Positions 7,783 through 62,436 of a stretch of DNA of 64,000 nucleotides are shown here, piece after piece. This DNA comes from Lineus longissimus. Taxonomy: Eukaryota > Nemertea > Pilidiophora > Heteronemertea > Lineidae. The notes under the pieces are model-generated. The model ran no database searches. It had not been told where the DNA came from and worked only from the letters and a program-made list of their open reading frames with translations. Positions within the stretch are counted from its first letter, which is position 1. Each line of letters begins with the position of its first letter. The translations under genes and the position numbers were made by a program. The stretch is from positions 3,534,001-3,598,000 of the forward strand of contig NC_088319.1 in assembly GCF_910592395.1 (NCBI RefSeq), given 5' to 3'.

Positions 7783-7785
7783 ACA

Positions 7786-15596: not shown

Positions 15597-18500
15597 TCAT
15601 GCTGATGGCTTCAATTCAGCATACGTCTGGTTGGCGGTCACATCAGGCTGTAAAGGAGGATAATAATCTAATGTCAAAATGACTCTAGAAACCCATAGCT
15701 TCGCGTCAACTAGTTTGTCTGACATCTTGGTAGTTCAGAGAATCATGGAATTCAAAGATTTAAAACCCATTGGGCAAATAAAAGTGCAGCTGTGTCCTGC
15801 AATGGAAGTGCTAGAAGTAAGACAATTAAAGGACAAATACGGCAAAGATTTGCAGATAATAAATTGAAAAAAAATGTATAGGCAGAAATATTCAAATTTG
15901 TATAGATTGTTATTTGAAAGAACATATTGCTAAGGCTCAGTGTTGAAGTGGCTGTCATTGTCTTACCTTGATGTCCAAGGCGGCATATTGATTTTCCATT
16001 TCATCATACGGATTTTCTTCTCCAGCTAAAAAGAGTCATGAAGGTGAGAATCTTATCTTTTTTTAAAAACTCTTTCTGAAGCATGATCGGGTATACACTT
16101 AGGAAACGGCCATCCAAAACCGCCCGCCAAGTTCTGGAACCCGTAGGGAAGGAATCGATTTTTTTCCTAATCAATTGCATAAGTATTACTTCCGCCTTCA
16201 TACAACATTGCGACTCCGTGAACCACTGATGATGCAACTTTTTAAATAAGCTCCAGTATCGCGTCAGGGACTTACATTAGTAAGCATTTGCAAAACGCTG
16301 AAAGCGTGTTGCGCACATTTAGTTATGCTTGCCATGACCGCCCTCAATACAACAGCTCAGACTGACGTTTACACGCCTGATAGTGGTACTTGCCTGTGGG
16401 ACCTCCAGGTTTCTTTCCTTCGCTGCTCTCACTCGTACTCTGCCTGGTCTCATTGATATCCTTCACCAATTTACGTATCAAGGCCTCCTGAGCCAAGGGC
16501 TTGATATGCATGATCGGGTATACACCGAGGAAACGGCCATCCAAAACCGCCCGCCAAGTTCTCGAACCCGGGAAGGAATCGATTTTTTTTCTGAAACCTT
16601 GTTGCGCACATTTAGTTATGCTTGCCGTGACCGCCCTCAATACAACAACCCAGACTGACGTTTGCACGCCTGATAGTGGTACTTGCCTGTGGGACCTCCA
16701 GGTTTCTTTCCTTCGCTACTCTCACTCGTACTCTGCCTGATATCATTGATATCCTTCACCAATTTACGTATCAAGGCCTCCTGAGCCAAGGGCTCAATTT
16801 TCATTTTTTCTATGTCCTCTCGCTGTAGTATGAGGAAGAATCGTGCATCGTTGAACCCGTTCTTAGCTAGGCATTCGTAAGTTGATTCTGTCACGTATTT
16901 TGATAGGAGCCACTGTTTGAAATCTTCGACTGACATATCTGAAAGAATTCTCAAAGTTTGTAGCAATACTAAAAATGATAAAGAAATTCAGCTGAAGATT
17001 TTATGAGAAATATGATACCGCGTTTGCGACTGGTGCAATAAATTAGTGCACACGGTTTTGCCTGTATTGTAACTTGACAATTCTGCTGTTAATTCTACGT
17101 TGAATTTCCTAAACTGTTGATGAGCCCGTCGTTATGTTTCGTAATACAACGGCAAGGGGGTGGGGGTAGTATGCTCACGACAAAATAAGATAATGATAAA
17201 AAAAAATTCATGACATTCACCGACCTTCGACTTTCCGACCAGCATCTTCGCCACTTGGCTTCTCGGTCAGATTTGTATCGTCGTAAATCACTTCTGAAAC
17301 AATATTGACCAAAAGGCGTCTGTTTAAAATGCAATATATCGGAAATCCGGGGATCGCTCCGTTCAACTTGAGCTTGCACATGCTGCATTTTAAATAAAGT
17401 AAAACTCGGACGAAAGGAGTATACGTACATGTACGTTAAGGCAGGTGTCTAGTACGTACAGTACCAGTACTTGTATTTGGTTAAAAAAGGTAAATGCTTA
17501 CCTTTAACAGAAACCTGTTTAGGACCATTCACATAAACCGGCCCAGGTTGAATATCGTCACCTAGTATGGGGAGGGGTAGAGGAAATGTTAGCATTGTAC
17601 GCATGGCTATCACTACTTACTTGTACATTGCACACCGCTAATGAACAAAATCAGCAAATCCACACTATGTGATGCTATTTTTAGGGTTGACCATGGACAC
17701 TACTATTTTGAAGAGAACTTGAAATCCTAAAGCAATCAGAACGTCTTCAAAATTAAGTGAATGTCGGAGACTGTTCTCTGGGACAGGCGCCTCCCTTGAC
17801 ATTGGCATTCACTTCGTTTTTAAAGAGTTCTAATTGCTTCGTCAGCAATTAAAGTTGCAGCCATAGAGGCGGCGCATTTGTCATCCCTCAGTCTTATCGA
17901 CTGGTCAGAATGGTTTAAGGCAATCACAGCTATCAAGAAAAAAGTACATTCATGTCAAAGCATATGTCAGCAGCCTTCAATAACATATACCAATCATTTA
18001 TCTACATTTAATATAATCCCGCTACCTTTATAGTACCCAGCTTTATATATTCTTTATGAACTAAAATATTTACCTTCAAATGACCTGTTGACGACGTTCA
18101 TGTAAACAGGGTCGTGAAAAACGGATTTAGGTTGGGGAGTGCCAGTTCTCACATCATCCGCTTTCGATCCCTCAGGTTTATTTCGACCTAAACAGAAGGC
18201 AATGAGGTTGAACCAGTCAAAGAAGTTTTGAGTTGAGCGTATTATCAGGGCTGACCTGATGATATGCAAAGATAAATTAACCAAACTATTTGTAAGTAAA
18301 CAATGCCAACATATCACGCTAATTTCTTCGGTTTTTTCATCAGGTTGGTATCAAAATGCATTTATTTTCTTATATAAAACCTACCAGCGAGGCATGCCAT
18401 GTTCCTCCTATGTAGAACGACAACCACGACCATGACCACAGCTATAACTATGACGACGGCTACAACCACACCAGCTATCATGCCACCATCAGGACTACTT

Positions 18501-21500
18501 CCAGCAGGCACGGTAGTTGGTTGTCCAACATTATCAGGAAGCACAGGACTTCTTCCAGCAGACACGGTCGTGCTTTGTCCAGCATTCTCAGGGAGCACAG
18601 GTCCAGAAGTATAAATAACATCATCCCCATCATAGAAATCCAAATAGAAAACATAAGTCGTTGTCGCATGTGTCACATGAATTGTGTAGTTTGTTCTTGC
18701 AGGATCTTGGATAGGGACGAAAGACCTGTTACATCCTGTCGTGTTTGGCGCCTACCCTGGCAAGCAGAACTTGAACTCAAACTTGGTGTATGGCTCCTTC
18801 AGAGACGCCGAGAACACCACGGTCACCAATTTTTCTTTCCGAATGAGCGTATATGTGGGGATACTCGGAAGAGCTGAAAAGAACACATGCAGCGTTTAAG
18901 AAGAATACATAAAACAATTTACAGTTTGTTAAGGTCAAATAACGGAAGGAGGAAAGTGATATTGACTTTCGTTATGGTACATATTTGCGGCATTTCACCT
19001 TGATTGCAGTATTTGACTGCTTCAAAGCATGGTTTGTTCATTTGATTCTGCTGTGATTGTAATCTTGAGAAAGACAACTGCAAGAGTAAGCCAGCCCTAA
19101 TGATAGTTGACAAAAGAAGTTGTCGCCTAGCAGCCTACCAAAAGCGTCTGGTGAGATAAATTGCGTGGCCTTTGCAGTTATACCAAATCAGTAGATGTTG
19201 TTCATTAGACTAAGTACTGTTGATCAAAATCCAGTTGGTTTTCAGGGGATTTCCCGTTGCCGCTAGTGGCTGTGACCCACCCCAAATGGCACCCTCATAA
19301 AATCACCAAAGACAAAATGAAAGATACCTTTGCACATGGAAGTTAAAACTGTGGCCTCAATGCAAATAGTGTATACATGTATTTTGAACAGGTCATATCC
19401 ATTCATATTCATGGAATCGACAAGTGTGAAGAACTATTCCTTTGAGGATGGCTAACGGACCCGTCTCCAATGTGTTGTGCCACCTGAGATTAGAGTGCGG
19501 AGATGATTGGGAGAAAACAACTTGCCTGGCCGAAGTAGCTCAAAGACAAAGTATGAAACTCCAGCTGAGTTAGTCACTTTGACGATGTAGTTCCCATAGT
19601 CTTGAGTCCCTACAGATCCCTTGCTCAGTGTGTTTGTCCCATTTTCGTCCGCGGGGATGAAGTTTTCCCCAGTTGCCATCTTGTGATTTGGGTGATACCA
19701 CGTAACATCAGTTGGTCGAGGGTTGGCGATGACGTGGAGTGTAAACCTGACTGGTCGTGATGGTTTGCTTTCAACGGTGAAGAGTCTCGGCAGACTGGGA
19801 TCCCATTTTGCTTTGTCTGCAGGCGTATGAAACGGGAAAGTGAGAACAACTGGGGGATCTTACACGTAAACATGAAACATGCTGAAGAACGTCAGCCATT
19901 TAGGATACAGCTGATTTGTGCTATCGTTACACAAGGCGTTAAACTAAGGGATGCATTATAAATGTATTTGAAACGCTGGGGGCGTCGGTTTAAATGATGA
20001 AAAAGCAGCAGTCGAGGTGTAGGACCCAGAAGCCCAAGGCCGGACCCTACAAACCCCGCAAGTTAGGGTTGCTTGGGGCAAAAAAGACAACAGTTAAGAT
20101 CGTCCGAGTTTTCACGACCTGCAGACAAGTAAGTTATGCTGTGGCTTGGTCCATAGAGCAAGCATTGCTCCTTTGTCAAACATGGTACAGTGGAACCCCG
20201 GTAACACGACCACCCAAGGGACTAAGCCGAAGTGGTCGTGTTACCGGGGTGGTCGCGTTAGTGAATTTAAGAATGATAAGTAGGTTTTCCCGCCAAAACA
20301 TCGTCCTGGCAGATATGCTGTGTGTACATTGACATGCATTAATGACTACGCCACCGGGTGATTCGATAATTTTGTGTGTATATTACGAATAAAAAATCAT
20401 TTTCTTGAGTGTTTTGCGTTTAATTTACAACTTATGTAAATGAGTAAATAAACTGACGAGAGCTAATTAGACCAAACATTACATTAAAACTTGAGCATGC
20501 TAATTAGAGCAAGCATGTTATTCACACCATCGGCAGCTGCCCTTCTTGATGTCAAGCTAATATTCCCGCTAACATTGAGAGAGGTGATGTGAGAAGATGT
20601 TGAGAATTCTTCCTGATGTCTTCCTGCTTTAACTTCAGCCAATTTGAACTGGTACTGATTAAATCATCTTTTTAAAAACGTATTTTATCAATATTACGAC
20701 GTAGTGAGCATTCTTTACTTTGAGTATTGGTACTCTTACTAATCAACATAATTTATTTGTCCTAAAAACTACGTGCGCATGCCTCTTGACATCATTTAAT
20801 ACTAAATCATGAAAACAAACCGTGAGTCGAAAAGAAAGTTTATTCTTCATTTTATTTGCGCTTACATTTGATCAAACTCACTCACACATCATTTATTTTC
20901 ATATGGATTCCCATGGTCATTGTGTTCGAGGTGCTAACTATCAACACGGATTTGCGAGAAGGTGCCAATTGATACGATGCGGTCATGGTTGATTACGGCA
21001 ATTAGGCCTCATGGTCGCGTTAGCGGGGTTAATTTGCAGTTTGGGACCGACCAAGCTGGTGGTCGCGGTTTGGGTACCGGGGTGGTCGTGTTAGCGAGGG
21101 CCAGTTAATGGGAATTAGAGAGAAAACCATTCGGGACCGGAGAATTTTGGTCGTGTTCGCGGGATGGTCGCGTTACTGAGGTGGTCGCCGACCGGGGTTC
21201 CACTGTATATACAAAATCAAAATAGCGTTAAATATCATGTTGATTAATTGGACAAAGAGGATGCTTACTTGTTAATTGACTGACAAGCTATTGGACTACA
21301 GAAAAAAGCATATACAATGATGGCTTGAAGTATCTAAAATATTTTAGGCAAATTCTTAATACTCACAAAAAACATTAATCTTCGCAGATGCATCGGCTAT
21401 GCCCCCTGGCGAATAGTTAACCACTCGACAATGATAGTCCCCAGCCTCCGTGTATTGTATAGATAGTATTCTGTATTCTCTTGAAGTCAAATCAGGTATC

Positions 21501-24500
21501 TGTGTCCTTTTATAATACCACATGTAGGTGTACACTGTCGGGTTACCCCTGCTTGCTTCACATGTCAATGTGACAGAACCACCTTCTCTCACTGTAGTCG
21601 GGGCTGATGATAATCTAGCAGTTGCTGGGTCTGAAAATAATATCACAATACATGTACAACGAAAAAATTAATGCTGATTTTGAGCAACGTAGGGTTAAAA
21701 AAAGGGTAGCATTTTTTGTTTAGCCTACTGTTACATTATAGCATGGGATTGACAGTGTGTCATGAAAACCTGGATTCACTTATTAAAAAGGACCAAACAG
21801 CAAGGTGAGGTGGATCCGGACTGCATATAAATATACAACTTACATATTACACTGTATGTCTTTATGCCTGAAGCCATATCCAAGGCGGGATACCCAGTAA
21901 CCTTCGCCACACAGTAGTACTCAGCCTGGTTGTCTTCTTTAGCCATCACCCTGTCTTGACCTTGGGCGACCTCTACTGGTGTTCCGCCTGACCTCTTGAA
22001 GTAGATCTTCACGGTCGGGATGGGGTTGCCGCCAGAGACTGTGCAGGAGAACTTGTCCTTGTCTCCAACATGGGACGAGGTGTTTCCAGATGACACGACC
22101 ACGGAATCAGCCTTGTCTGAAACGATGATGCTGCAGGTATTTTAGATAATGATCAGAGGCAATAAGCTATCAGTTCTGTAGTTTCACATTGTTTCAACAG
22201 TAATGTCGCCATAGGTTCTATTGCCATAAGACCTTGTCCCTTCTTGCCATATGAAAAAGGTGTTGATTTAATAAATCGATTTAAGCTTTGGCATCGTCGG
22301 TGTAGTCTGATTCACATGTATTTCAACAAAGACTTTCATAACGTATGGTACAACTATAGGTCTGGCATAATTTCAGCAGGGCTATGATTATAATTTTACT
22401 ACCCTGCCTTAAGTTTTCTCATTGTAATTCTATTTTGGTCTACGTGAAATGTTCACTGAATTTCTTTTGAACTTCCTGGTCTTTTAATTGTTTGCATCGC
22501 CACATTACACGATGGCTAATGCTATCTGTTTACCACAGAAAAAAGTGCTTACCTGGAGAGGAAATGACGACACAAAAGAAGCATACAAAATATTAGTTCA
22601 TTGTGATCGAGGGGCGTAAGGCCCGCATTCATAATTTTTATCCATTTGTACCCCTCAAACTCTGCAATGTGATGGCCTTAATTGTTTCTATTTGGTTGGT
22701 AAACCAAACCAAGGTAAACCAATACCTTTACCAACTTACCGTGCATTAGACATGATAAAATTCACCAACGAAGAGCAATGAATAAAAATCAGTTTGAGCA
22801 TTGTAACGTCACGATTATATCTTTTCACATTTATAAACTGGGCTACATAAACATGTATATGCATTTCGGAGTTTCAACCAGGAAGTACGATGTACATATC
22901 ATTTTTAGTGTCAACACTGTTTCTCATATTGTGCCTTCATGTGTAAAATGTCACGTGGAGCGGTAAAAAGGCTTATTCTTATTCGAATGGGAAAATATGG
23001 AAAAATTAACCTACTTACAATAAACGACTAATGTCGTATCATTGCTTGTTGAAGAGCCAGCACTATTTCGAGCAACGCACTCATAAACACCAGCACTCTC
23101 CTTCGTCACTTGGAAGTCGTAAGTCAACGATGTCGTCACTTTTGTACCATCTTTGTACCAATCGTAAGTGTCTCCAGAGGGCGAGGCCCCACACTTCAAG
23201 TCGAGTTGAGTGCCAGGAGAGACTGGTCCAGGTGGAAACCCGGTTATTTGGGGTTTGCCTGGTTTCACTGAAAAAGTATCATCTGATCGTTGAAGGTGTT
23301 TAAGAATACCGACCCTTTTCGTGACTTCGACTGGCAAAGCGTGTTAAATTTTGCTTGCCTCTGTTTACACTTCATGATTCGGTAGAATTTTTCCTTGAAT
23401 CGATTTTTTACGATGAAATGGTACCACTACTCAACCAAAGATGTATAGGCTATTGCAGTACCTTGGGCTCTCAAAATTTAAGTAACAAAAATATTGTTCA
23501 TACGTAATATACATGCGCATCAATGGCCATGGTATTTGCAGCCACCTGCTACAGGCACTGAAAATTAAGAAACAGTCACTGATAGTCGGTGTCGATGAAA
23601 CGTTTTATTTGTATGCTCTTCGTTCCTTTATACAGGCGAAAGTTATTTGATTACAAAAAGGGCGCAGAAATGCTTTACCTTGCACAACTGGCTTGACTGG
23701 GTTACTGTTGCAGCTTAGACCGATATCCTGACAAATCCAGTAAGCAGAATCATAAGGCTGAGCATTGGTGACTTGTAGATTGAATGTCTTTGTCGGTGAT
23801 GAGATGCTTGGTGGACTGCAGCTGCTCCAACTGTAGCGTGGGTTACTTGGAGCATGGCATCCCTTGCTATTTGCTGCAGCTACATCTAAAGCAGCAGATA
23901 AAGCATCAGCCCCCTTTAACAATTTTACATGAAATCCACTAGGATTGTTTATGTAACAGTTGAGGGTGAATGTACTTCCGATGGCAGGTTTGGGTGGTGA
24001 AACACTCACAGTATACAAGGAACCTGGAAGTGAAAGAAATTGCAACAAAGAGAAAGTATGAACTGACTTTTTTATTTGACATATTGGGTCTTGTCTCTGT
24101 TGGTAAGAACAATGTAATTCACTTTACAAAATTGGTGAAGAAACGACATCATTGTAATGGAGGAATCACAAGAGTCTCTAGTCGGAGAACAATCACTGGA
24201 TAATGGCTACCTTTTCATTCGAGGCATCGTTATGAAAAATAAAATTCTAAACACACAGCGAGATTGCTGTAAAATAAATCGAACTCTATCTTTATATAGT
24301 TTTACTGAGCAAAAGAACCTCTTGTAGTCTATTTCATTTGACGTAGTTTCATGTAAAACCTTTGTTAGAACGCCCGCAAGGACGTGGACATTTACTTCTC
24401 AGAAGCCTATATTATTGAATAACTCACATGGTGTATAGACATACAGATCTCCCCATTCGCTGTCTCTTGTTCCGGCCGAGTTCGATGCTCGACACAGGTA

Positions 24501-25414
24501 CTTCCCACTGACAGGCTCTGCAGGGTTACCTGGGTGGAACACTTTCTTCTCAGTCACTCGATTGAAGATATACTTCTGACTTGTACCAATGGGTCCTTTG
24601 GGTTCCCAATTCTCTACACCATTAGCAATCGAGTATTTATACCATTTATAGGTGATGGTCCCGGCATCAGGTTGAGACACATCACAGACGAGTTCACGGT
24701 TGGAGCCGATAGAAGCAGGTTCAAACCCAGATAAAACAGGTGTCTTTGGTGGAACTAAAACATTATAGACAGTAAGCCGTTATAAGTTGCATTTACGTCT
24801 TACTTGTAAAATATCTTCTCTTTTGATGACGTTAGTTGATATATATCCAGCCTCAACGACTAAATAATCCGCCAACTTTCGCGGCTCTCAATCTTTTTCA
24901 CGCAAATTTTGGAAATATTAAAATGTCCACTATTTTTAATTGGTTGATTAAGGAATCCTTAAATTTTTTCAAATGAAATGCATATTTTTACGATTTTTAT
25001 TTTAGCGAATCAGGATATTCACCAACTTCGCGAAAAAAAACACCCGCAAATATAAGGCTAAAATATAATCTAAAATAATATAGTGCTTACTTTTTCTGTT
25101 GGCGTTCGTGTTATTATACTTTTCTTGTCAGAAACAGTAAATTCGGTGCTGATCATGATTCTGGTTGCTTCAAGCACCTGTGATCTACTTCACGGATCGT
25201 GGTTGAATAGTTCGAAAATGGCGGCCTCTTTTGGTAGCCAATGAACCCAGTTACGCAACTGCGCAGAAGTCTAATTATTCAAAGAGATTTTCAATTTTCA
25301 ATTTTCGAGTTAACGATAAATGTTATGTGTTATTAGTTACTCACCAATCAGATAACCGAGAGGTATGAACGGAGAAACTAAGATAAAGCTCACGACGAAT
25401 ACATCAACAGCCAT
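15597..25414 (-). CDS. Gene A: IgSF receptor with SAM-like tail and premature stop
   Basis: Exons from 5': signal peptide 25345-25414; Ig1 24428-24754; Ig2 23679-24023; Ig3 23019-23267; Ig4 21844-22116; Ig7-type 21367-21630; Ig8-type 19526-19816; FN3 plus transmembrane 18385-18873; tail exons 18074-18187 (VYMNV), 17502-17561 (VYVNG), 17225-17293 (VIYDDT), 16687-16938 (SAM-like), 15967-16025 (PYDEM, QYAAL), 15597-15647 (TYAELKPSA, stop). All join in frame for 970 residues if the TAG at 18752-18754 is read through; otherwise the product is a 646-residue ectodomain without a membrane anchor. Compared with B and C it lacks Ig5, Ig6 and the first FN3 exon. Two donors (at exons 19526 and 16687) are GC rather than GT, in perfect CAG|GCAAGT context. 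Likely a cell-surface or secreted recognition receptor; could be a pseudogene in this haplotype. Confidence 0.8.
16394..16501 (-). pseudogene. Partial duplicate of the SAM-like exon
   Basis: Minus-strand translation repeats the end of the SAM exon (KPLAQEALIRKLVKDIN...GKKPGGPTG) with a few changes, including the same GC donor. The first two thirds of the exon and its acceptor are missing. The flank is also repeated: 16075-16160 matches 16508-16590, and 16294-16390 matches 16598-16690. So a local duplication of about 300-430 bp tore the exon. Use as an alternative exon is possible but no good acceptor is seen. Confidence 0.7.
16687..16938 (-). CDS. SAM-like domain exon in the gene A tail
   Basis: 84 codons, phase 1 on both sides. 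The acceptor follows a TTTCAG; the donor is CAG|GCAAGT. The peptide begins DMSVEDFKQWLLSKYV, then has STYECLAKNGF, LQREDIEKMKI and ALIRKLVKDIND. The spacing of W, the hydrophobic pairs and the EDI/KMKI block fits a SAM (sterile alpha motif) helix bundle of about 65 residues, followed by a Ser/Gly/Lys-rich linker. SAM domains self-associate or dimerise with partners, so this exon could cluster the receptor tail. It is absent from B, C and D. The alternative that the frame simply runs on to a stop after GKYHYQ (reading through the GC donor) would give a shorter tail. Confidence 0.68.
18385..18873 (-). CDS. Gene A FN3 plus transmembrane exon with in-frame TAG
   Basis: 489 nt, in frame with both neighbours by splice phase. 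After FKFCLPG the codon at 18752-18754 is TAG, where D has CAG (CGPGQAPKTTGC) and B and C have CAG or ACG-type codons in the same stretch. Downstream the frame continues intact through an FN3 strand (YTIHVTHATTTYVFY), a Thr/Ser/Pro stalk longer than in B-D (two SPVLP-like repeats), GGMIAGVVVAVV, the transmembrane helix and LHRRNMACLAG. The preserved downstream frame argues for a recent nonsense change, a base error, or a regulated stop. Confidence 0.8.
20188..21205. mobile_element. Non-autonomous pogo-like DNA transposon, 1018 bp
   Basis: Termini CAGTGGAACCCCGGT and ACCGGGGTTCCACTG are inverted repeats flanked by TA on both sides, as in Tc1/mariner-pogo elements. Subterminal blocks repeat ggtcgtgttaccggggtgg motifs in both orientations. 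No transposase frame is present. It lies in the gene A intron between the Ig7-type and Ig8-type exons and is absent from B, C and D. Confidence 0.85.
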
Positions 25415-25742
25415 GTTTAGTTCACTCCGACATAATAACATCTAAATGGACGAGCCCTTTAAATTTTCTCTTCTGGTTTTCATTACAAGAAGATATTATT
25501 CAATGTAGGTCATAGCATTCAGGCTGTGCATTGATCAAATATTGACTATTGATATAGCATATATATTTTTAGAGCTTTTTAAGTGAACTGGGCCGTGGAA
25601 CATATATCAATACCAAGCTAGAAAAAAACAGAGTTTTTGATTAGCATAGTCATGTGAGTCTCGACAATGAATGGCTGTGAGACAGAAAAAAGGTTTTTTC
25701 ATGTGTGGATCGTCCAGAGTAACGTTGAGTACTTCCTTTTAA

Positions 25743-26064
25743 TAATTATGAGACTTATATAGCGCAAAATCCAACGGGTTTCAGTCGCTCAAAGCGCTTC
25801 GCATTATTACCCCTAGCTATTGGCCTGTACATTCGTGGTTCAAGCTCTACTCTCTGGCAGTATTACAGGTCCGAGCTGCAGCTATACAGCGTTCAGGATT
25901 AACAGTGTGCCAACTCTGCCAGCTAGGTACCCATTTACTCCTGGGTGGAGAGAAGCAAGTAGAGTTAAGTGCCTTGCTCAAAGACACAAAGACGAAACAG
26001 GAGTGACACTTCCGACCCACGACCTCCTGATTATGAGCCCGGTGCTCTAACCACTACGCCACTG
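25743..26064 (-). mobile_element. tRNA-derived SINE upstream of gene A
   Basis: On the minus strand it begins with a tRNA-like head (GTGGCGTAGTGGTTAGAGC as A box, GGTCGTGGGT as B box), passes through a central region (containing gagcaaggcacttaactct) and ends in a tail with gcgctatataagtctcata and an AT run. It is about 320 bp and sits 0.33 kb upstream of gene A exon 1, in a spacer where B, C and D have no such insert. It may alter the gene A promoter. Confidence 0.75.
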
Positions 26065-26167
26065 ATCTTCCCTATTCTTGGCCGGTGTAGAAGTTTAAAA
26101 TGTCCTAGGATAGAATGCCCGAGAAACAAAGGATTCTATTATGCGCTTCAATCTCTGAGCTATTGAC

Positions 26168-26537: not shown

Positions 26538-26705
26538 TAACAGTAACAAATGCCCCCCTGGAAAAAGTTTCCGGCCCTATTGTATTCTGCAATATGGTTC
26601 TATAGAGACCCTCACCAAGTGCAGAACATGCAGAACGAAGCATGCCTGTCAGTCACATTCATATAACACTGAATACAACAGACTGCGAAATCTTGGAACG
26701 AACAT

Positions 26706-26841: not shown

Positions 26842-26931
26842 AACAGTGCGTTATAAGTAATTCATGGAATCTGCAGGCCTGGCGTAACACAGACCAGCTG
26901 AACAATATTTAATGATTAAAAGATAATTAGT

Positions 26932-51497: not shown

Positions 51498-54400
51498 CTA
51501 GATTTTCAATTCAGCATACGTCTGGCTTGCGATCACATCAGGCTGAAAGAAAAATGAAACTTTTCCGGATTGTGTCAATTAAAGGCGTCAACTGTGAGGG
51601 AGGCGGGGTGGGGATACAGCTATAAAGTTATACTGATTCTAAAAATGCTGATACATTTCGCTTCAGTGATAAACTTCTAAAAAATGTGTCCTTTTCTATA
51701 TGCCTTTGATCAAGACACTCAACACTGGCAACGCATACGATCACTAATAAAGCCTCAAACTGAAAAATCGGCAGCTCAGGCTCAACTCGTTTTATCTTCA
51801 TCTTAGGAAATGTGTTCTAAAAATTTCACGAATAACAAAAGATTCTTTTCAATTTATATTTCTGAGGTGAAAATGACTTGAATCTGTTGGCCTAGGGACA
51901 AGCATATCAAAATGTCCTAAATGATTTGCTCACGAGTACTAGCCAATCAGATCCACAGATTCCGACTAGATGTACGATGTGATGTGATATAGATGAGTCA
52001 CTAAATCGTGTTCAAAGCGACGTCCTTCAACCCAAGAACGTTCTAGAGCTTTCAGAACTGGTGAAGTGCAGGCTTTGAAAGTCACCGAGTAACTCTTGGC
52101 TAGTGATGTGGCCATAGGTCATTTATTCGTCTTTGTTCTTCATTGCTATCATTCAATAATCACGAGATTCATGATCAAATCTGCTCTACAAATTATACCT
52201 TGATCAGGTTATGAACATTGCATTGTAACTAACAGCGAAATATATCAACACAACTCAGGAAGGGCATGACTGTATTCTCTTACCGTGATGTTCAAGTCAG
52301 CATATGGATTTTCCATTTCGTCATACGGATTTTCACCGCCATCTGAAAAAGAGTAATATTAGCATAAATCAGAATGTTAATTTTTACACAATCAATGGAA
52401 AGAGTTTTTACCTTGACAGTTTCGAGAAGTGACACTTCTCTTCCTCAGAAAGTTAGTTAGTTCTGAGTTTGACCGCTAGATGTAGCGGCCAAACTGGCGT
52501 CTCACACGTGACTCAGCGGTCAAACTCAGAACTAACTAACTTTCTGAGGAAGAGAAGTGTCACTTCTCGAAACTGTCAAGGTAAAGACTCTTTCCATTGA
52601 TTGTGTAAAAATTAATATTCTGATTTATATTCACTCACAATCAGATGAATATTATCAATGAGTAATGTTAGCGTTTCATATACATGTACATGTGCAATAT
52701 AATCGATTAAGCGTATTGCGTAGGCTACAGCGGGTATTTTGTACTTACATGGTAAGCTTGTGACTACATGTACTTACCTTTCACGGGATTCTGTTGAGGA
52801 GAGTTCACATAAACCGGTTCATGTGGAGTATCGTCACCTAGACGTGGAAAGAGAAAACTTTGGCATTGTATACCTTAGTATTTGTATTTTATAACTGTAT
52901 ATCAGTCTGTATTGGTGAATGTACTGTACATATCACACGTAATGCAGATACCATGCATCATTATTACGATAATGCCACAATTTGCTGCCCGATTTCTCTT
53001 CAATGTGCGAAAACTAATAACGTTACCTTCAAATGTCCTGTTGACGACGTTCATGTATAAAGGGTCATGAAAAACTGAATCAGCTTCCGTTTTGCCAGTT
53101 TTCCCATCAGCATGATTTGATTCATCGGGTTTATTTCGACCTTGAACAGTAAATGAACTTTGTTTAAACAGAGTCTTTCAACACTATTAGAACCTTGCAA
53201 AAACCTTGCAAAACCTGTACTTGTCTATGAAAGTGAACAATATCTTAAAACGAATAATATAATCATCTTACAAGAAATACATGTACAATAGAACCTCTCT
53301 CTAAAGGACAACCCTTGACTGACAAGTGCTGTCCTTGATAGAGAGGTCTCCAGATTAGAGAGGTCAAATTGAATGGAAAGATCAAATTTTGGACCAAAAC
53401 CTGTGTCCTTTATAAATAGGGTGTCCTTAATAGAGAAGTGTCCGCTAAGGGAGGTCCTACTGTATATCGATACCTTCGCCTTGGAAGTATTCTCTGACGT
53501 AAACTTACCAGCGAAGCATGCCATGTTCCTCCTATGTAGGACGACGACGACCACCACCACAGCTACAACTATGACAACGGATACAACAACGCCAGCTATC
53601 ATGCCACCATCAGGACTACTTCCAGCAGGCACGGCCTGTTTAGGATGCACTTGACCAGAACTATAAACAACATCATCACCAACATAAAAATCCATGTAGA
53701 AAACATAGATCGTGGTCTCGTTTGTCACGCTGACTGTGTAAGTTGACTTCGTTGGTCCCTGGTTATTAAAGCGAATCGAGCTGCAGCCTGTTGTTTTTGG
53801 TGCCTGACCTGGTCCACAGAACTTCAGCTGGAAACCTGTGTACTCCCGAATCGGCGGCCCGAACACGACCGTCACAAGTCTCCCGTTACGGGTGATCTTA
53901 ATGGTCGGGTCATTTGGAGCAGCTGAAAAGATGTTTAATGTTTTATGATTGGAAAGATCAAGTCACATGAGGAAAGAAAGTTCAACGACGAACTTCGAAA
54001 TGGGACTCCTTGTTTTAAAGGCTGCGGTAGGCAGCTGTTATTATTCGAACTTTCTCACCTCGTTGCCTAGTACCTTCGTCCACTGTTTTGTATGTTTATC
54101 AAAAAGTCACGAGAACGTTGTTTGAAAGAGTTGTAATGTAGGTCAACGTTGCTTTTCGAGATGAGAGAAGTTGAGGAAAGGTTGCAGTAGGACACAATGC
54201 ATCACTTGGCAAAATCAGCTATGGACTGTCAAACGTTGAATAAACAAAACTCAATCAAAGACATCAAATTATTTGGTGTTTTGGCGAGGTAATAATTGCA
54301 TTCGCAAGAATTGCTGTCACCAGCCAGAGATCAAGTTTCTTATGAAATGGACTGTAGTTACGTTAATTACTTTTTCACAAATTCACCTAAATTTGACAGC

Positions 54401-57400
54401 AATATCAATTATTTTAAAAGGGGTCATTGCTAACCTAGTGTCTGTACTCCGAGTACCTCCCATAGCTACTTGATATATATATTTAAATATGATCACAAGC
54501 CTTGTCCTTACCAAATATCAAAATATCACTGGAAATTATGGGAAAGTTGTCATTTTGACACATTTTGTTTAATGTGTATGGCCAACAATCAACAGCGTTG
54601 CGCCTGTTCAATTGTATTTGAATGATAGAATATGAAAAAACTATGGTAACGAGTCACAAATGAGCCATATTTGGAGAATGGAGAATATAAAGAAATTTCC
54701 CCAGGTGTCAAAGGCAGTGTCACTTTATCATGGAATGGTCTCTCCTCTTGACAACTTTGGCTATATAAACTTAACGACAGTCAGGGACTTTTGAAGAAAT
54801 AGATTGGCTAACCTAGTATTACACAGAAAACGGTTTCAATTCGTATTCAGTGTGAACACAGCATTGGAGTTCATAACATACCCCTTTCCTTCATTTCTGT
54901 AATTCTCAGCTCCATTCATAAACTCCAAAAATGTTTCTCTTTCAGCACCTAAATTATTCAAAAAAAATCACCTTAAAAAGAGGGGCTGACTTAGCTGGGA
55001 AGTGCAAAACTACAGTATGTCTCATGTTTTCAACTTACCTCCGCTGAGAAGTTCAAAAACAAAAGATGACATTCCAACAGAATTAGTCACTTTGACGGTG
55101 TAGTTTCCATAGTCTTGAGTCCCTACAGATCCCTTGCTCAGTGTATATATCCCATTTACTTCCGCGGGGATGAAGTTTTCCCCATTTGCCATCTTGTGAT
55201 TTGGGTGATACCAGGTGACATTGGTTGGTCGTGGGTTGGCGATGACGTTGAGTGTAAGCCTGGCTGGTCCTCCTGGTTTGCTAAAAACGGTGAGGAGTCT
55301 CGGCAGACTGGGATCCCATTTTGCTCTGTCTGCAAGTGTATGAAACGGGGTTAGTGAGAACAACTTAATCATCTATGCATTAACTGGAAACCTACCAAAG
55401 TCACGTCTGCCTTTTATAGTAGGAATACGATTTTCTGTCAATCAAGATATATCGGGTGATGACCAGTGGGGAAAGGGTAGAAAATCCGAGGGCGTGTCCA
55501 TAAACTGGGGACATATCTGACTTCCACAATCAGTGGTCAAGACGTACAAGACATGTCCTCAATAGAACTTAAAGGCGAAGACTCCGCGCACCCTCACTTG
55601 TTTGATAGAGCTGATTGACTTGGGACAACAAAGATATCAGCAGAACAGAGTTTAGAATACTCTTCGTGACCTACAAGTTAGAATACTCTTCGTGACCTAC
55701 AATTTCAGCTTCGGTCGAATTAAAAAGATAAACAATATTATTTCTTTGTCATGTTAACTTTGTGCAACACGGTACGTGTATCTACGGGGTTCTGGTACTG
55801 ATCATTTAGTGGACACCATAGAAGATGTGCTATTACTTACTGACCAATACTGAACCAATACTTGCTTACTATTAAGACCAATTTAAAATTTCATATGCAA
55901 TGCTTCGAAATACATTGAAACAGATCTGCATGTTCTTCGTACTCACATAAAACATCCAATTTCAATATTGTATCAGCTATGCCACCTGGAGAATAGTTGA
56001 CCACACGACAGCGATATTCCCCACTTCCGTTGTACTGCATTGATGATATTCTGTATTGTCTTGAAGTCATATTCAGTATCTGTACCATGTTATAATACCA
56101 TATGTAGGTGTACGATGTCGGGTTACCCCCGATTGATTTACATGTCAATGTGACAGTATCACCTTCTTTCACTGTAGACGGGACTGATGACAATCTGGCG
56201 GTTGCTGGAACTGAAAATTATACCACAATTTATACGTTTTCACGTGTCACTGTTCACTTTGCATGCGAGACATGAAGAACCAACAAGTCATTTCCAAAGA
56301 GTGGCCTGAAACGATTCACGAGGTCACATTTCACCCTCACGTCGTGTTTTCAGGCCTTATTCAGAAAACTCGTGACAAGTGAATCACGACCCTAAACTTC
56401 AGCTAAGAATTTGTATACAACCACGTTATCATGAGTGCACGATACTTTGGAAACCATAATTCTCAATCAATGTTTTTACAAGGAGTGATGTATTCAGTGA
56501 CTGCACATGTAAGTACATTTTTCAGTACATTACATTCAAAGATAAAACATATGCTTCAACTACTTGGGAAAAATACGGTAAGATATGATGTAAACTTCAC
56601 TGTTTTGCAGAACTAATACGTACAATATACATTAACTGTAGTTATCTGTTCGATCTGGAATGAACCCTCACGAACCTCGCATTTAAACACAGCGTGTGTG
56701 TCCGACCTATTGGCTGTCACAACCAGAGTACTCTGCCGAATCCTGCCATTGTATTTTGCAGCCCTAACTACAGATGTTATCCCTGATGTCAATTGCTCCC
56801 AGATTCCCCCTGCCCTCTTCCGGTGGAACTGGATATTCACTACTGGGTTGGCACTGTCTGTCTCACAGATGATCATGATCGGGTTCTCCTCGTGGATCGC
56901 AGCTGGTGGTCTCTTTGGCATAGTTATCTTTGATGGGCGAACTGCAATTGGAAGATCAAGTTCGGAATAGAATAGTAGCTAACGCATACTGATTAAAATC
57001 AAAATTTGCTGCCAGAAATTTTAAATGTAATTACAATAAATGTACATTCTATCGTACTTTGTTCATCTACTCATATTTTACATTGTAAATGGAACGAATA
57101 ACAACAAGTACATAACGATGACTTATCTATAATCTTACATTATTCGTAGGCTTTTTCGACATATTATGACCGTTTCTCTAACTTTTTCCTGATTTATCCG
57201 ACAAAAGTCTAACGCAACATTGTCCGACTTTGCCCTGAAAGGTTGGATTTTCAGAGAAAACGAGTTAAAGAAACCGATAAGAAGTCGGAAAAAGCCTCCT
57301 ACTAGTGTTAGTCAACACTTCAGATTCTCGTTTCTGTATCAGGTGCTTCTACTCACATTTTACATACATTGTAGTATCGGCATATGAAGTAAACCTATGA

Positions 57401-60400
57401 CCAGGCAGGGAGTAAATGGACATACATCTTACAGGTTCACCATTCATTGCCTTTGTTGCAGTTACAGACCACTCACTGATCCTCATCTTTCCACCATACA
57501 CACCTTTCCTCTCGGATGACGAGATTCCGGTTGTGACATTTCGCCACGAAGAACCAATATATTGATACCACTTGATGTCGGTAACTGGGTTACTCTCATC
57601 CGTCTCACATGTGAACTTCTTTACCTGACCAACCTGGTCAGCAGCGGTCGGGTAACTCAGAAAGGAAACATTGGTGTTCGCAACTGAAAAGGAATGGCTA
57701 GATATTTTCCGTACTTCCTTTTACATATTTTTATCTATGGTGATAAGCAATGCTCTCAAATGGCCGAGTAGCTTTCTCACGCTCTTTATGTTGAAGTGAA
57801 CTGAGATTTCACAAATTATAAAACCTACAAGTTACACTGTATGTCTTCCTGCTTGAAGTCATATCGAAGGCGGGATACCCAGAGACCTTCGCCTCGCAGT
57901 AGTACTCAGCCTGGTTGTCTTCTTTAGCCACCACCCTGTCTTGACCTTGGGTGACCTCTACTGGTGTTCCGCCTGACCTCTTGAAATAGATCTTCACGGT
58001 CGGGATGGGGTTGCCGCCAGAGACTGTGCAGGAGAATTTGTCCTTCTCTCCAACATGGGATGAGGTCTTTCCCGATGACACGACCACGGAATCAGGTTTG
58101 TCTGAAACGATGATGCTGCAGTTATATTGGGAGTAACTAGACTTAAGCTTTTAGCTCTCTTTATAATTGACGCATAGCCTTGCCGTTTCCTTTTGCACTT
58201 TTGTGGGGGAGGCCTACATGTCTAAATGAGCTAATGAATTAAACACGGACTGACATTGATTCTAAAATCTCACAATGTCTAGTGTTGATGCGAATGATTC
58301 AGTTTGAGAGAGAATGATGTATTTCTATTGGAAATCTTAGAGGCTTTTTGACATTTTCGTTTTTATTACAGTGTACATTGTGACCGTGTATGAGCCTTGG
58401 TAGTCTACAGTAAACTTGGGCAGAAATTTAGAGCATGAATTTTTTTCCTGCGGTGATGAGAACTAACACGCTGTGCATTGCATTGTTGGGGATTCCCTTC
58501 CCCAGTTTCAACCTCGTGATGAGACATTTTGCCATAGTAAGTTTTAGTTCGTGTTTTACCCCTTTTATCTCTTCTCAGCCTCACTAGCTGCGACCCTCGA
58601 AGCAAACAGGCTTGTTTTAGATAATGACCGAAGAGGCAATAAGCTATCAATTCTGCAGTTTTACATTGTTTCAACAGTAATGTCGTCATAGGCTCTATTG
58701 CCATAAGACCCATGTCTCCACTTGCCATATGACAAATGTGGATTTAATGAATCGAATCGCTTTGGTATCGTCAGTGGAGTCTGATTTACATGTATTTAAA
58801 AACGTCTTTCATAACGTATCGTACGACTATGACTATAGTCCTCGTAACATTACACCCAGACTGTAATTGTAACAAACTCGCACAGTGCCGAAATTAAAAT
58901 TCAATTTCAGACACTGGAATTGGTAAAATTCCGCCATCTTGGATATCGGCATCCTGAGATTCAGGTGTTTTCAACACTGCGTCACCACCACTTCAAACTC
59001 CAAAGTCTTATCCAGGCCTAGTAAGTGCCACCTTCTTTCATAAAATGGCTTGTTTTATAAATAAATAACAAAATATGATCTTTGTAAATAAAACCCGAGA
59101 TGTTCTGGTGTGTTTTTACGTGAATTTATTGCAAACTATCAATGCAGCGTAGTGCAGCCATCGTGTTCTCGGGCGTAGTGGTGATGCGATAGCCTCTTTG
59201 CAATTGTAAAGATTCTTTACATTTCCACATGCGCGGTACTGCTTTTCAAGATGGTGGCAATTTAGCAGTGCTAGAGCCGTTGTTTAGGAACGACATCAGC
59301 GCCTCTAGTGTCAAGATTGTAATTGTAACTGTACTAAATCACGCCCTTACATTTTCCAACCGAATTATGAACAACTAGCAGCCGTTTATAAGAAAGCTGA
59401 AGCCAATTCCATTTTAGTTTGGTTGACATGAACGGTTTACTGAGCGAGCAGACTAGAATTTCTATTGAACTTGCCTGGGCTTTTAAGTTTGTATTCACCA
59501 CACAGACAGGTCAAATGTACCAACGAAGAGCAATGAATAAAAATCAGTTTGGGCATTGAAATGTCGCAATTATGTTTTTTCAACTGGCCCACATATACAT
59601 GTAAATGCATTTTGGTGTTTCAACAAGGAAGTACGATGGACATCTTATTTCTAGTGTCAATAGTGTTTCTCACATTGTGTCTTCATGTGTAAAATGCCAC
59701 TTAGAGTGATCAAAAGGTTTATTTATGGTTCGAATGGGAAAATATTTAAAAATTATCATAACTTACAATAAACGACTAATGTCTTGTCACTGCTTGGAGC
59801 AGACCCGACAGTATTTCTCGCCACACATTTGTAAACACCACCACACTCCTTCGTCACTTGGAAGTCGTAACTCGATGACGTTGTAACCTTTGTACCATCT
59901 TTGTACCAATCGTATGTATCTCCAGGGGGCGATGCCACACACTTCAAGTTGAGCTGTGTTCCAGCAATGACTGGTCCAGATGGGAAACCCGTGATCTGTG
60001 GCGTGCCTGGATGCGCTGAAAAATTTCATTTGATTGTAAGTGGGTGGTTTGGAATACCAACGCCCTTCTCGTATCGTGACTGAGACTGGCAAATCGTGGT
60101 CAATTTTGTTTGCCTCTGTCTTTCACTTAATCGTGGCATTTTAATTGGCTTCTATATTTTTCACAATGCACTGGCAGCACGACTCAATCATGCTCTGGCT
60201 ATTGTAGTATGGGCTCCCAAAATAAGTAACAAACAAAATGTATATACACATAACTGGTCATAGTATTTGTAGCTATTTGTAGCTAGCTACCTGAAATACG
60301 TACTGAAAATTACTAAATAGTCTTCGGTGTATATAAACCAGTCATCGGTGTAGATGACTATTTTAGTTGCGTGCTCTCCGTTCCTTTATACGGGCGAAAG

Positions 60401-62436
60401 TTATTTTATTAGAAAAAGGGCGAAGAAACGCATTACCTTGCACCACTGGCTTGACTGGGTTACTGTTGCAGCTTAGACCAATATCCGTACAAATCCAGTA
60501 AGCAGAATCAGAAGGCTGAGCATTGGTGACTTGTAGATTGAATGTCTTTGTCGGTGATGAGACACTTGGTGGACTACAGCTGCTCCATCTGTAGCGTGGG
60601 TTACTTGGAGCATGGCATCCCTTGCTATTTGCTACTGCTACATCTACAGCTGGAGATGAAGCATCAGCCTTCTTAAACCACTTCACAGTCACTCCGCTTG
60701 GATTGGGTATGTAACAGTTGAGGTTGAATGTACTTCCGATGGCAGGTTTGGGTGGTAAAACACTCACGGTAAACAAGTAACCTGGAAGTGAAACAGAGAT
60801 TATCGTATTTTTCAGATGGATCTGGCAAAATATAAAAGTGTGATCACAAATAGTAATGTTACACAGCCCTTGGCAGCTGTTGTCATTATAGAGGATAAAC
60901 TAGTACAACACCAGTATCTTCTGGTAAATGTGATCTGGTCAGATTCCTGAGTTCAACTACGTAAGTACGTTTGGCCAGAACGATATGATACAAATATGAA
61001 TGCACTATAACAAAGAAAACACAATTAGAACACCACATCTAAATTTGTTTTTGACACTTATCGGATAGTCCGTTTGTAAGACTTTTGTAATGTGGGTTAC
61101 AGAGTTAATGGTGGACTAAAAGACACAAATGTCATTCGAGAACAGTCACTCGATAATGGCTTCGTTTTCATTCGTGGCATCGTTATGAGATATGAAATTC
61201 TAAACGCACAGTGAGATTGCTTCAAAAAAATATCGAAGTCTTTCTGAAAAATAAAATTCTAAACGCACAGCGAGATTGTTGTAAAATATATATCAAGCTC
61301 TATCTATTACTCGTTTTACTGAGCTGAAGAACCTCTTGTATTTTATTTCATTTGACATAGTCTTTATGTAAAACCTTTGTTAGAATGCCCGCAAGAGAGT
61401 GGACATTTACTTCTCAGAAGCCTATATTATTGAATAACTCACATGGTGTATAGACATACAGATCTCCCCATTCGCTGTCGCTTGTTCCGGCCGAGTTCGA
61501 TGCTCGACACTTGTACATTCCACTGACTGAGTTCTCTTTTGAAAATGAGTGGAACACTTTCCTCTCAGTCACTGGACTAAAGATATACTTCTGACTTGTA
61601 CCAATGGGTCCTTTACTCTCCCAGTCCTGTACACCTTTATCTATCGAGTATTTGAACCATTTATAGGTTATGGTTCCAGCATCAGGTTGAGACGCACCGC
61701 AGACGAGTTCACGGTAGGAGCCGATAGCAGCAGGTTCTAATCCAAATAAAACTGGTGTCTTTGGTGGAACTGAAACAATGATCATGGACATTATATCTTG
61801 AAGTTTCAATTTACGTCTTACCTGTAAAATATCTTCTCTTTTGATGACGTTAGATGATATATAACCAGCCTCAACGACAAAGTTAATGGGGGTCTATAAT
61901 CCGCTAACTTTCGCGCCTCTCAATCTTTTTCACAAAAAATTTCAGAAAAATTAAGACTTCCACGATTTTTTATAGGGTTGATTAAGAAATCTTTAAATAT
62001 TTTCCTATAAAATACAGAGTTTCACGATTTTTATTTTCGCGAATCAGGATATTCACCAACTTCGCGAAGATAAAACACCCGCAAAAATTAGGCAATATAA
62101 AATAATATTGAGTGTTTCCTTTTCTGTGGCGTTCTTGCTATTACATTGTATACAGATCTGATCAGAATCAGTAAATTCGGTGCAAATCATTTATCCTCTG
62201 TGAACTACTCTGCGGATCGTAGTTGAGCGGGTCGAAAATGGCGACCTCTTTTAGCAGCCAATGGACCTAGTTACGCGACTGCGCAGAAGTCTTATTGTTC
62301 AAAGGGATTTTCAATTTCCAAGTTTTCGATGAATGCTTTTGACAATGTTCGAGTCATTATACTCACCGATCAGGTAACCCAGAGGTATGAACGGAGAAAC
62401 TAAAATGAAGCTCACTACGAATACACCAACAGCCAT
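51498..62436 (-). CDS. Gene D: IgSF receptor with ITIM-like tail, first FN3 exon lost
   Basis: Exons: signal 62367-62436; Ig1 61443-61769; Ig2 60437-60781; Ig3 59767-60015; Ig4 57829-58101; Ig5 57357-57683; Ig6 56624-56941; Ig7 55947-56210; Ig8 55039-55329; FN3b plus TM 53509-53922; tail 53027-53140, 52778-52837, 52284-52342, 51498-51542. Because neighbours are phase 1, dropping FN3a keeps the frame, giving 1051 residues. Signal peptide MAVGVFVVSFILVS. The tail is YMNV, YVNS, YDEM, YADL, YAEL and ends LKI. Ig exons 5-8 are more diverged from B and C than those two are from each other, while the last 3 kb are close to them. Type I membrane receptor; ligand unknown. Confidence 0.87.
52364..52628. 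mobile_element. Near-perfect long hairpin element in the gene D tail intron
   Basis: Arms of about 110 bp (ataaatcagaatgttaattt to gagtttgaccgct, mirrored at 52510-52628) around a loop of about 35 bp. Only scattered mismatches, so it is recent. The word gagtaat(a/g)ttagc occurs on both sides (left at 52351, right near 52661), compatible with a duplicated target of about 13 bp plus an unpaired 32-bp right extension. Genes B and C show the empty site. Confidence 0.88.
53286..53462. mobile_element. Pogo-like MITE downstream of the gene D membrane exon
   Basis: CAATAGAACCTCTCTCT to GGGAGGTCCTACTG, TA-flanked, same family as 35953-36113 but inserted at a different intron (48 bp past the membrane exon donor). 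Confidence 0.75.
53509..53922 (-). CDS. Gene D FN3b and transmembrane exon
   Basis: 138 codons, phase 1 to 1. APNDPTIKITRNGRLVTVVF, FCGPGQAPKTTGCSSIRF, a TNETTIYVFY strand, a short stalk, the Val-rich helix and LHRRNMACFAG. It keeps the CAG (Gln) at the codon that is TAG in gene A, so it documents the likely ancestral state. Confidence 0.86.
54435..54470 (-). pseudogene. Remnant of the FN3a exon in gene D
   Basis: 36 bp match the 3' end and donor of the FN3a exon of B and C (gtgtctgtactccgagtacc), after which similarity stops. Upstream similarity to C's intron resumes near 54640. About 255 bp of exon have been replaced by about 165 bp of AT-rich DNA. Confidence 0.75.
57146..57302. mobile_element. 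MITE with inverted termini (gene D)
   Basis: GTAGGCTTTTTCGAC at the left mirrored by aaaaagcctcctac at the right; same intron as the copies in B and C, more diverged. Confidence 0.65.
58874..59317. mobile_element. Gene D-specific insertion of 444 bp with 12-bp target duplication
   Basis: Flanked by tgtaattgtaac on both sides (58862-58873 and 59318-59329). Gene C has a single copy (47199-47210 region, ataattgcaac). Its start (aaactcgcacagtgccgaaat) matches the repeat near 9510, and its end (cagcgcctctagtgtcaag) matches 14292. No open frame. Variable long target duplication suggests a retroposed repeat. Confidence 0.7.

Follow-up and report, generated by a model that had tools for sequence, protein, structure and literature searches.

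A predicted tandem cluster of immunoglobulin superfamily receptors with mosaic exons and different signalling tails in the nemertean Lineus longissimus

The stretch of DNA analysed here (the window) comprises 64,000 nucleotides of the nemertean Lineus longissimus (contig NC_088319.1, positions 3,534,001 to 3,598,000, forward strand), which are probably part of chromosome 12. Judged from its sequence, the window covers a section of a tandemly arranged gene cluster that encodes type I membrane receptors belonging to the immunoglobulin (Ig) superfamily. The genes are composed of a signal exon, 7-10 Ig or fibronectin type III (FN3) type exons in phase 1, one transmembrane helix and a tyrosine-rich tail. 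Protein searches recovered 45 clusters of related Lineus proteins on four chromosomes, in which two ectodomain families and three tail types are cross-combined. Similar ectodomains are predicted to sit on different signalling tails, a paired-receptor-like organisation with mosaic exons. Recognition of non-self by immune cells is the function that would best join the size of the family, the mosaic ectodomain and the exchanged tails, and we hold this reading slightly likelier to be right than wrong.

Direct repeats of 11-13 kb run through the window, with common 20-mers found mainly at offsets of 11.35 and 12.75 kb, and the conserved reading frames of these repeats lie on the minus strand. Exon chains built by splice-site scanning at homologous anchors gave four genes, G1 to G4, which are arranged head-to-tail, are all located on the minus strand and together fill positions 15597-62436. 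The tandem array of paralogues described in the initial annotation is therefore present, yet not all four copies are intact. G4 contains an in-frame TAG in E11, ahead of the transmembrane segment (18752..18754, minus strand), at a site that is open in the intact paralogues P0021 and P0022 (P labels denote deposited Lineus protein clusters at 90% identity). Because of this stop, three rather than four genes are intact in this sequence. Apart from it the G4 chain is open throughout, which suggests that the damage is recent or polymorphic.

G1 (51498..62436, minus strand) consists of E1 62436-62367, E2 61769-61443, E3 60781-60437, E4 60015-59767, E5 58101-57829, E6 57683-57357, E7 56941-56624, E8 56210-55947, E9 55329-55039, E11 53922-53509, E12 53140-53027, E13 52837-52778, E14 52342-52284 and E15 51542-51498, and has no E10. 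G2 (38727..50183, minus strand) consists of E1 50183-50114, E2 49547-49221, E3 48645-48301, E4 47878-47630, E5 45366-45094, E6 44934-44608, E7 44003-43686, E8 42774-42511, E9 41983-41693, E10 41324-41034, E11 40699-40283, E12 40060-39947, E13 39758-39699, E14 39577-39519 and E15 38771-38727. G3 (27351..37414, minus strand) consists of E1 37414-37345, E2 36775-36449, E3 35874-35530, E4 35108-34860, E5 33566-33294, E6 33134-32805, E7 32211-31894, E8 31420-31145, E9 30614-30324, E10 29955-29665, E11 29323-28907, E12 28684-28571, E13 28383-28324, E14 28201-28143 and E15 27395-27351. G4 (15597..25414, minus strand; 971 codons including the final normal stop) consists of E1 25414-25345, E2 24754-24428, E3 24023-23679, E4 23267-23019, E5 22116-21844, E8 21630-21367, E9 19816-19526 (GC donor), E11 18873-18385, E12 18187-18074, E13 17561-17502, E13b 17293-17225, E13c 16938-16687 (GC donor), E14 16025-15967 and E15 15647-15597. 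All junctions in the four genes are GT-AG except the two GC donors of G4, whose junctions agree with those of the paralogues P0003, P0021 and P0022.

The reading frames of G1, G2 and G3 run uninterrupted from start to stop codon and encode 1051, 1149 and 1154 residues. Their layout comprises the signal exon E1, Ig exons E2-E9, an exon E11 that holds a beta-sandwich, a stalk and the transmembrane segment, and four tail exons E12-E15. The common exon set proposed at the outset holds for the signal exon, Ig exons, transmembrane segment and tyrosine tail; the FN3 exon E10 is present in G2 and G3 only. Gain and loss of exons, which had also been proposed, is further evident from the absence of E6 and E7 in G4 and the presence of E13b and E13c in G4 but not G1-G3. 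Every junction from E1 to E14 is in phase 1, as had been noted for the Ig exons, while E14/E15 is in phase 0; because the E1-E14 junctions are all phase 1, single exons could be lost or repeated without a change of frame. The G1 translation is identical to the deposited Lineus protein P0008 and that of G2 to P0005. G3 matches P0001 except at the E8 acceptor, where P0001 is three residues longer and has one further change, and at the last residue. This residue is I in P0001 and H in the window (E15, 27351-27356), a difference that may reflect an allele or a near-identical copy.

Allelic copies assembled end to end would also produce a row of similar genes, and the copies are indeed alike, with 12 of the 14 introns of G2 and G3 being 93-100% identical. 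However, exon content differs between the copies, G1, G2 and G3 have separate deposited models, and aligned sites outside exons differ by 15-24% in the pairs G1-G2 and G1-G3 and by 12% in G2-G3, values inflated by the unalignable E4-E5 intron. The assembly was derived from 79-fold PacBio and Hi-C data with haplotypic duplications removed, according to its description (PMC8593623). An assembly artefact of this kind is scarcely credible.

The family to which the window belongs comprises 24 Lineus clusters on three chromosomes (4, 12 and 17). A second, related ectodomain family comprises 21 clusters including the query P0030, of which 18 are on chromosome 18, one is on 12 and two are on 17; the exons of P0030 are 27-36% like those of the window. 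The window's chromosome carries 14 protein clusters plus G4, so that the estimate of at least six members is comfortably exceeded. The 45 clusters correspond to approximately 40 loci; clustering at 90% may merge loci and isoforms may split them, and P0002, P0018 and P0024 were taken as isoforms by inspection. Among the relatives E5-E6 or E5-E7 may be repeated, E6-E7 or E8-E10 may be absent, and E13b-E13c are found in some members only.

The tails fall into three clusters across both families, with a best between-type similarity of E 0.002. Typing covered 41 of the 45 clusters, with P0059 assigned by visual inspection; P0017, whose tail has 18 residues, and the three isoforms were left out. Type I is the tail of the window genes, with or without a SAM-like domain. 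Type II is found in the chromosome 17 members P0010, P0011 and P0016 and in 8 members of the second family, and type III in 13 members of the second family (P0046, P0050 and P0054-P0064), mostly on chromosome 18. Ectodomains of close similarity carry tails of different types. P0053, with a type II tail, and P0056, with a type III tail, are encoded on the same chromosome (17); their ectodomains share 89.7% identity over 348 amino acids, and the two proteins diverge at the membrane. P0045 and P0050 are 86% identical over 310 amino acids with tails of different clusters, and within the window's own family type I and type II ectodomains reach 80% over 445 amino acids.

The ectodomain exons do not share a single history. 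Within gene pairs of the window, synonymous divergence is heterogeneous among exons (P <=0.002 in five of six pairs and 0.054 in the sixth). Between G2 and G4 there are 7.5 synonymous differences over 82 sites in E2, 8 over 81 in E3 and 29 over 63 in E4, and between G2 and G3 E2 has 0 over 82 sites, with 1 difference in 368 positions of the E9-E10 intron and 0 in 187 of the E12-E13 intron. The nearest relative likewise shifts from exon to exon: the closest relative of E3 of G4 is P0011, from chromosome 17 (0.87; P0022 of chromosome 12 reaches 0.86), and that of E4 of G4 is P0012, from chromosome 4.

Across chromosomes a gradient along the protein is evident. Mean identities within chromosome 12, between 12 and 17 and between 12 and 4 are 0.81, 0.81 and 0.78 for E2 and 0.82, 0.82 and 0.75 for E3, against 0.78, 0.53 and 0.59 for E8 and 0.76, 0.33 and 0.43 for E11. 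The excess of within- over between-chromosome identity is 0.014-0.034 for E2-E5, 0.060-0.065 for E6-E7 and 0.199-0.389 for E8-E11. Permutation of chromosome labels gave P values of 0.118 for E2, 0.0105 for E3, 0.106 for E4, 0.0155 for E5 and 0.007 for E7, and 0 of 2000 permutations for E6 and for each of E8-E11. In trees built from 19 of 22 loci each, E8, E9 and E11 form one clade per chromosome with long stems (support 100, 99 and 88), and in the tree of E2-E5 internal branches are short and terminal ones long. Chromosome 4 is already a single branch in the tree of the N-terminal module (support 85).

Stronger constraint on the distal exons does not account for their similarity. Among G1, G2 and G3 the ratio of nonsynonymous to synonymous divergence (omega) is 0.22-0.46 for E11. 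Of the five comparisons of E2 and E3 in which omega is defined, four give 0.67-0.78 and one gives 2.7, so that neither exon is under tighter constraint than E11. Because E2-E7 are alike across chromosomes, yet E2 and E3 are not more constrained, the E2-E7 part appears to share a younger between-chromosome history than the part from E8 to the tail. A single spread of an ectodomain module would yield this pattern, and so would conversion that is still going on. Omega for the ectodomain as a whole is 0.62-0.73 among the same three genes, a range that would also suit reproductive proteins, as if these were receptors for gamete or mating recognition. Long tails with many SH2-type motifs are atypical of gamete recognition, and we consider this very improbable.

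Patches of raised ectodomain divergence, which the initial annotation had proposed for the array, were recovered between G2 and G3, where E3 differs by 12.5% against 5.0% in its flanks (P 3e-4) and E11 by 8.9% against 2.2% (P 3e-5). Pairs that include G1 contain no exon whose divergence significantly exceeds that of its flanks. As a general rule, faster change of exons than of introns was rejected: it is significant only for E1, E3 and E11 of G2-G3, and in all other cases exons are at least as conserved as their flanks.

Ig domains score above Pfam cut-offs in P0001 (Ig_3 E 1e-41, I-set 5e-24, V-set 8e-11), bearing out this part of the domain content first proposed. The V-set match (P0001 147-231, E 8e-11) is on the second Ig exon, not the first. 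The equivalent exon of G2 is E3 (48301..48645, minus strand), with variable C and C' strands and the highest divergence of any Ig exon between G2 and G3. For FN3 the outcome was mixed: the fn3 score is 19.8 bits for the E10 frame of G3 (29955-29665) and 20.3 for P0001, below the 25-bit cut-off, and 25.1 in P0003 and 30.1 in P0012; E10 of G2 (41034..41324, minus strand) was assigned through homology with G3. E11 of G2 (40283..40699, minus strand) is predicted to encode an FN3-like beta-sandwich, a stalk and the transmembrane helix by homology to the model of P0001, which has seven strands at 934-1014 and a helix at 1039-1061. The sandwich in E11 is named by no Pfam family.

The P0001 model, from an AlphaFold run with 26 sequences, has beta strands all through the ectodomain and the transmembrane helix at 1039-1061, and gives no confident structure for the tail; the predicted local distance difference test score (pLDDT) is >=70 in 707 of 1157 residues. 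Comparison of the chromosome 12 members shows clustering of variable columns within E2, E3, E6 and E7 (uncorrected P 0.017, 0.036, 0.027 and 0.0025), and no such clustering was found in E4, E5, E8 and E9. With strand names read from the model, the variable columns lie in the C and C' strands and the loop between them in E3, in the C-C' turn and the loop preceding the F strand in E2, and in the F-G hairpin in E6.

Foldseek searches with this model returned generic Ig chains with low TM-scores, a muscle thick filament chain being first, followed by contactin-2, Robo2, Dscam and MDGA1. Outside Lineus, identity to the nearest sequences is 21-26%; they comprise nephrins, sialoadhesins and one unnamed fish protein. 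These searches scored best-sharing candidates only, and absence from other species is provisional to that extent. The genes could accordingly represent a lineage-specific expansion of neural or epithelial adhesion molecules (nephrin-, SYG-2-, Dscam- or contactin-like) serving cell-type recognition in wiring or tissue building. Such folds would suit this explanation, as would automatic names such as syg-2-like and hemicentin-1-like and the nearest outside sequences, which include a nephrin-like protein of Tubulanus (25%, E 3e-44), sialoadhesins of mammals and nephrins of fish and turtle. Nephrin, SYG-2, Dscam and contactin likewise have Ig-repeat ectodomains, several of them with FN3. However, the similarity to Ig adhesion proteins is at the level of the fold only, at 21-26% identity, and sequence matches in the PDB mix Robo, Dscam and SYG-2 with CEA, Fc receptor-like 5, CD22 and Fc receptors. 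The tail search matched Lineus proteins only (17 of 17), and the 45 clusters recovered make up two ectodomain families that exchange three types of tail. No comparable expansion was seen in Tubulanus, whose nephrin-like protein was the only other nemertean match. Provisionally, the sequence matches point to an Ig superfamily receptor family found so far only in Lineus. We consider adhesion molecules the main rival explanation, a tenable one if doubtful.

CD22 has a tyrosine-bearing tail, and sialoadhesin and CD22, whose names several deposited Lineus models bear, also resemble the family in their many Ig domains. The listed sialoadhesins differ in sharing only 21-23% identity, and in Lineus the V-set match is on the second Ig exon rather than the first.

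The tails of G1-G3 each contain five motif tyrosines, in YMNV (YMKV in G2), YVNS, YDEM, YADL and YAEL; in G2 they are encoded by E12-E15 (38727..40060, minus strand). YxN is a Grb2-type and YxxM a PI3K-type SH2 motif. In eight tails of the family (P0014 included, P0008 not), YxN was found 12 times against 3.4 in shuffled sequences, YxxM 5 against 1.3 and YxxL 16 against 3.2. Paired YxxL motifs with a spacer of 9-13 residues, always 11, occurred 5 times against 0.02, and the YxxL-x11-YxxL pair is conserved in 13 of 25 tails. FcgammaRIIA has a similarly long YxxL spacer. In the same eight tails the pattern of the immunoreceptor tyrosine-based inhibitory motif (ITIM) occurs 7 times against 2.1 (P 0.003) and that of the switch motif (ITSM) 2 times against 0.3 (P 0.036). 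These matches all belong to relatives, and five of the seven to the ITIM pattern are inside the SAM-like domain, as is STYxxL in SAM-bearing tails, an ITIM by pattern. The sole match in G4 is also inside this domain, and P0003 and P0019 have one match each outside it. Type III tails carry SPYAHL and SLYAHL (ITIM consensus, S-x-Y-x-x-L) and YLDF motifs, and type II tails SPYSTV. Which tail types are activating and which inhibitory is not readable from the motifs.

If the receptors are displayed at the cell surface as predicted, the distal Ig exons E2-E7 would form the recognition part, with the variable strands and loops in E2, E3 and E6, and the membrane-proximal sandwich, transmembrane helix and tail would form an exchangeable signalling part. 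Contact with a ligand would lead to phosphorylation of tail tyrosines and recruitment of SH2 proteins through the YxN and YxxM motifs, and the conserved YxxL-x11-YxxL pair may act as an SH2 docking site of the ITIM class or that of the corresponding activation motif (ITAM). The SAM-like domain of some members could be an oligomerising or scaffolding part. Duplication, exon gain and loss and exon-sized exchange would diversify the genes, giving alike ectodomains with three types of tyrosine-rich tail; immune cells may in this way recognise non-self or altered self, with different tails leading to different outputs.

Siglec-11/16, CEACAM, KIR/LILR, SIRP and FcR-like proteins are paired receptors of vertebrates. 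Such receptors are defined by similar ectodomains on different signalling tails in PMC3533184, and for Siglec-11/16 PMC5701461 describes gene conversion that keeps the ectodomains alike. With Siglec-11/16 the Lineus genes share similar Ig ectodomains, different tails and an arrangement in gene clusters, as far as these two accounts extend. They differ in having 8 Ig exons in G1-G3, with FN3, in their spread over four chromosomes and in the SAM-like tail module, and orthology is without support. Among invertebrates, Hydractinia Alr is likewise a multigene cluster of Ig superfamily receptors, given as 41 members in PMC11999971, which also describes CgIgIT2 of Crassostrea gigas, a lophotrochozoan receptor with five Ig domains, a transmembrane segment, a tail ITAM and an immune role. 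CgIgIT2 is described as a single protein with classic ITAM spacing, unlike the Lineus tails, and is likened here by description only. No protein named Alr was among the 44 and 34 matches of two family searches, in which best-sharing candidates only were scored.

Several results weigh against reading these genes as mosaic immune receptors with exchanged signalling tails. The ITIM-like tails after which the array was first described were not recovered in the intact genes: none of the five tail tyrosines in each of G1, G2 and G3 matches [ILVS]xYxx[ILV]. The classical ITAM, YxxL/I-x6-8-YxxL/I, is found in 0 of 25 tails, G1-G3 included. Paired receptors join an ITIM-bearing member to a short-tailed activator with a charged transmembrane segment. 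Here, ITIM matches are present in tails of types II and III and absent from G1-G3, no short-tailed member with such a segment was found, and among 45 transmembrane cores only one has a histidine and none a charged residue like that of DAP12-coupled activating receptors. Among the closest solved folds, neural adhesion proteins are numerous. Positive selection on the ectodomain, which comparison of the copies by exon might have revealed, was not demonstrated: with 300 bootstrap resamples, 2 of 54 exon-pair tests gave P <0.05 uncorrected, approximately the number expected by chance, the two being E3 of G1-G2 (dN 0.137, dS 0.051, P 0.013) and E2 of G2-G3 (P 0.020). As to the mosaic, E3, E5, E6 and E7 carry some chromosome signal (P <=0.0155). 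For the N-terminal module the approximately unbiased (AU) test does not reject one clade per chromosome (p 0.79 for chromosome 12 and 0.49 for 17), and the tree with chromosome 12 held together is better by 6.3 log units; because of these two results, individual transfers between chromosomes are not demonstrated. On the whole, the receptor-cluster reading is strengthened by expansion in one species, mosaic exons and tail exchange; its ITIM part finds no support in the window's genes.

A narrower reading is that these proteins are the allorecognition receptors themselves, polymorphic molecules that would mediate the rejection of grafts in Lineus. According to PMC2248247 (citing Langlet and Bierne), graft rejection in Lineus ruber and L. 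lacteus is specific and leaves a memory that persists for three months; the family is large, clustered and mosaic, and no gene for graft rejection in Lineus was found proposed in the literature searched. The graft work cited concerns other Lineus species, however, and we judge this explanation quite improbable. For Lineus ruber, PMC9835746 reports components of Toll, Imd and complement, together with 16 genes that combine Ig and transmembrane segments in the manner of the complement receptor CRIg.

The additional tail exons of G4 recur in relatives. E13b (17225..17293, minus strand) bears a tyrosine (EVIYDD...), is spliced ahead of the SAM-like exon and has counterparts in P0003, P0019, P0021, P0022 and P0024. 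E13c (16687..16938, minus strand) is a helical, SAM-like cytoplasmic exon also found in the tails of nine relatives (P0003, P0012-P0015, P0019, P0021, P0022 and P0024) and not in G1-G3. The SAM_1 domain named in the initial annotation is below its cut-off (E 0.068, 14 bits against 23), as is SAM_2 (E 0.045, 14.4 against 20.5), and better scores were obtained with HTH_TANC1 (best E 0.0015, four of six members) and Sec15_N (best E 0.0004, two of six). A profile of E13c searched against the PDB matched a dynein light intermediate chain first (E 0.11), with Caskin-1/EphA6 and SASH1 SAM chains at 0.24-0.51. Its structure model has five helices at pLDDT 54 and no confident SAM fold, and gave two Foldseek matches, the better being the BICC1 SAM domain at E 7.7. 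The number of helices in the model and the weak matches are suggestive of a SAM-like domain. Downstream of the exon itself, part of it is re-duplicated at 16322-16715 (minus strand). The deposited models P0021 and P0022 end inside a read-through of the SAM-like exon; a GC donor was probably missed after this exon, and the tails would continue to E14 and E15. Because P0003 and G4 show the GC-donor junction, the annotated P0021 and P0022 tails are probably truncated.

At the left edge of the window, the signal exon of a fifth gene that had been expected there was recovered at 5..73 (73-5, minus strand), with 100% identity to the first 23 residues of P0022, and runs off the edge. The 3' end of another copy expected at the right edge was not: a search for E11-E15 homologues gave a best E of 0.064, and no coding exon was found. 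The sequence at 62300-63392 can be aligned with the other genes' spacers and 3' flanking regions, and 62437..63392 (minus strand) is a flank homologous to the inter-gene spacers that belongs to the 3' side of an upstream copy. The interval from G4 to the fifth receptor gene contains pieces of rhodopsin-like G protein-coupled receptor (GPCR) genes (4773-5210 and 10370-10975, both minus strand), in a region tandemly duplicated at about 6.5 kb (5942-6854 against 12500-13387, 82%). A rhodopsin-type GPCR in a single open reading frame is located at 871-1932 (plus strand; 7tm_1, E 7e-21), and its 3' end is covered by a tandem duplication of 149 bp (1824-2124). A retroelement reverse-transcriptase fragment is located at 7737-8753 (plus strand; RVT_1, E 6e-7). 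A short dispersed repeat is found downstream of G4 (14896-15073) and in the E2-E3 introns of G2 (48722-48882) and G3 (35951-36111), and a member of the same repeat family is inverted in the E11-E12 intron of G1 (53289-53464).

No paper on an Ig receptor family in Lineus longissimus was found in the literature searched. Transplantation immunity in Lineus is an old question (PMC2248247) whose molecular basis is, to judge from the literature searched, apparently still open. At its most ambitious, the pattern would represent an independently evolved paired-receptor immune system in a protostome, with approximately 40 Ig receptors on four chromosomes, in which exchange of exon-sized pieces keeps the recognition exons alike or re-sorts them and three tyrosine-motif tails, one of them with a SAM-like module, lead to different outputs; this system would underlie Lineus graft rejection with memory. 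We regard this as unlikely. As candidates, the members of the family would nevertheless provide genes with coordinates for the transplantation immunity of Lineus. The exchange of tails, hidden by deposited names such as titin-like, sialoadhesin-like and heparan sulfate proteoglycan-like, may offer a testable parallel to paired receptors outside the vertebrates.

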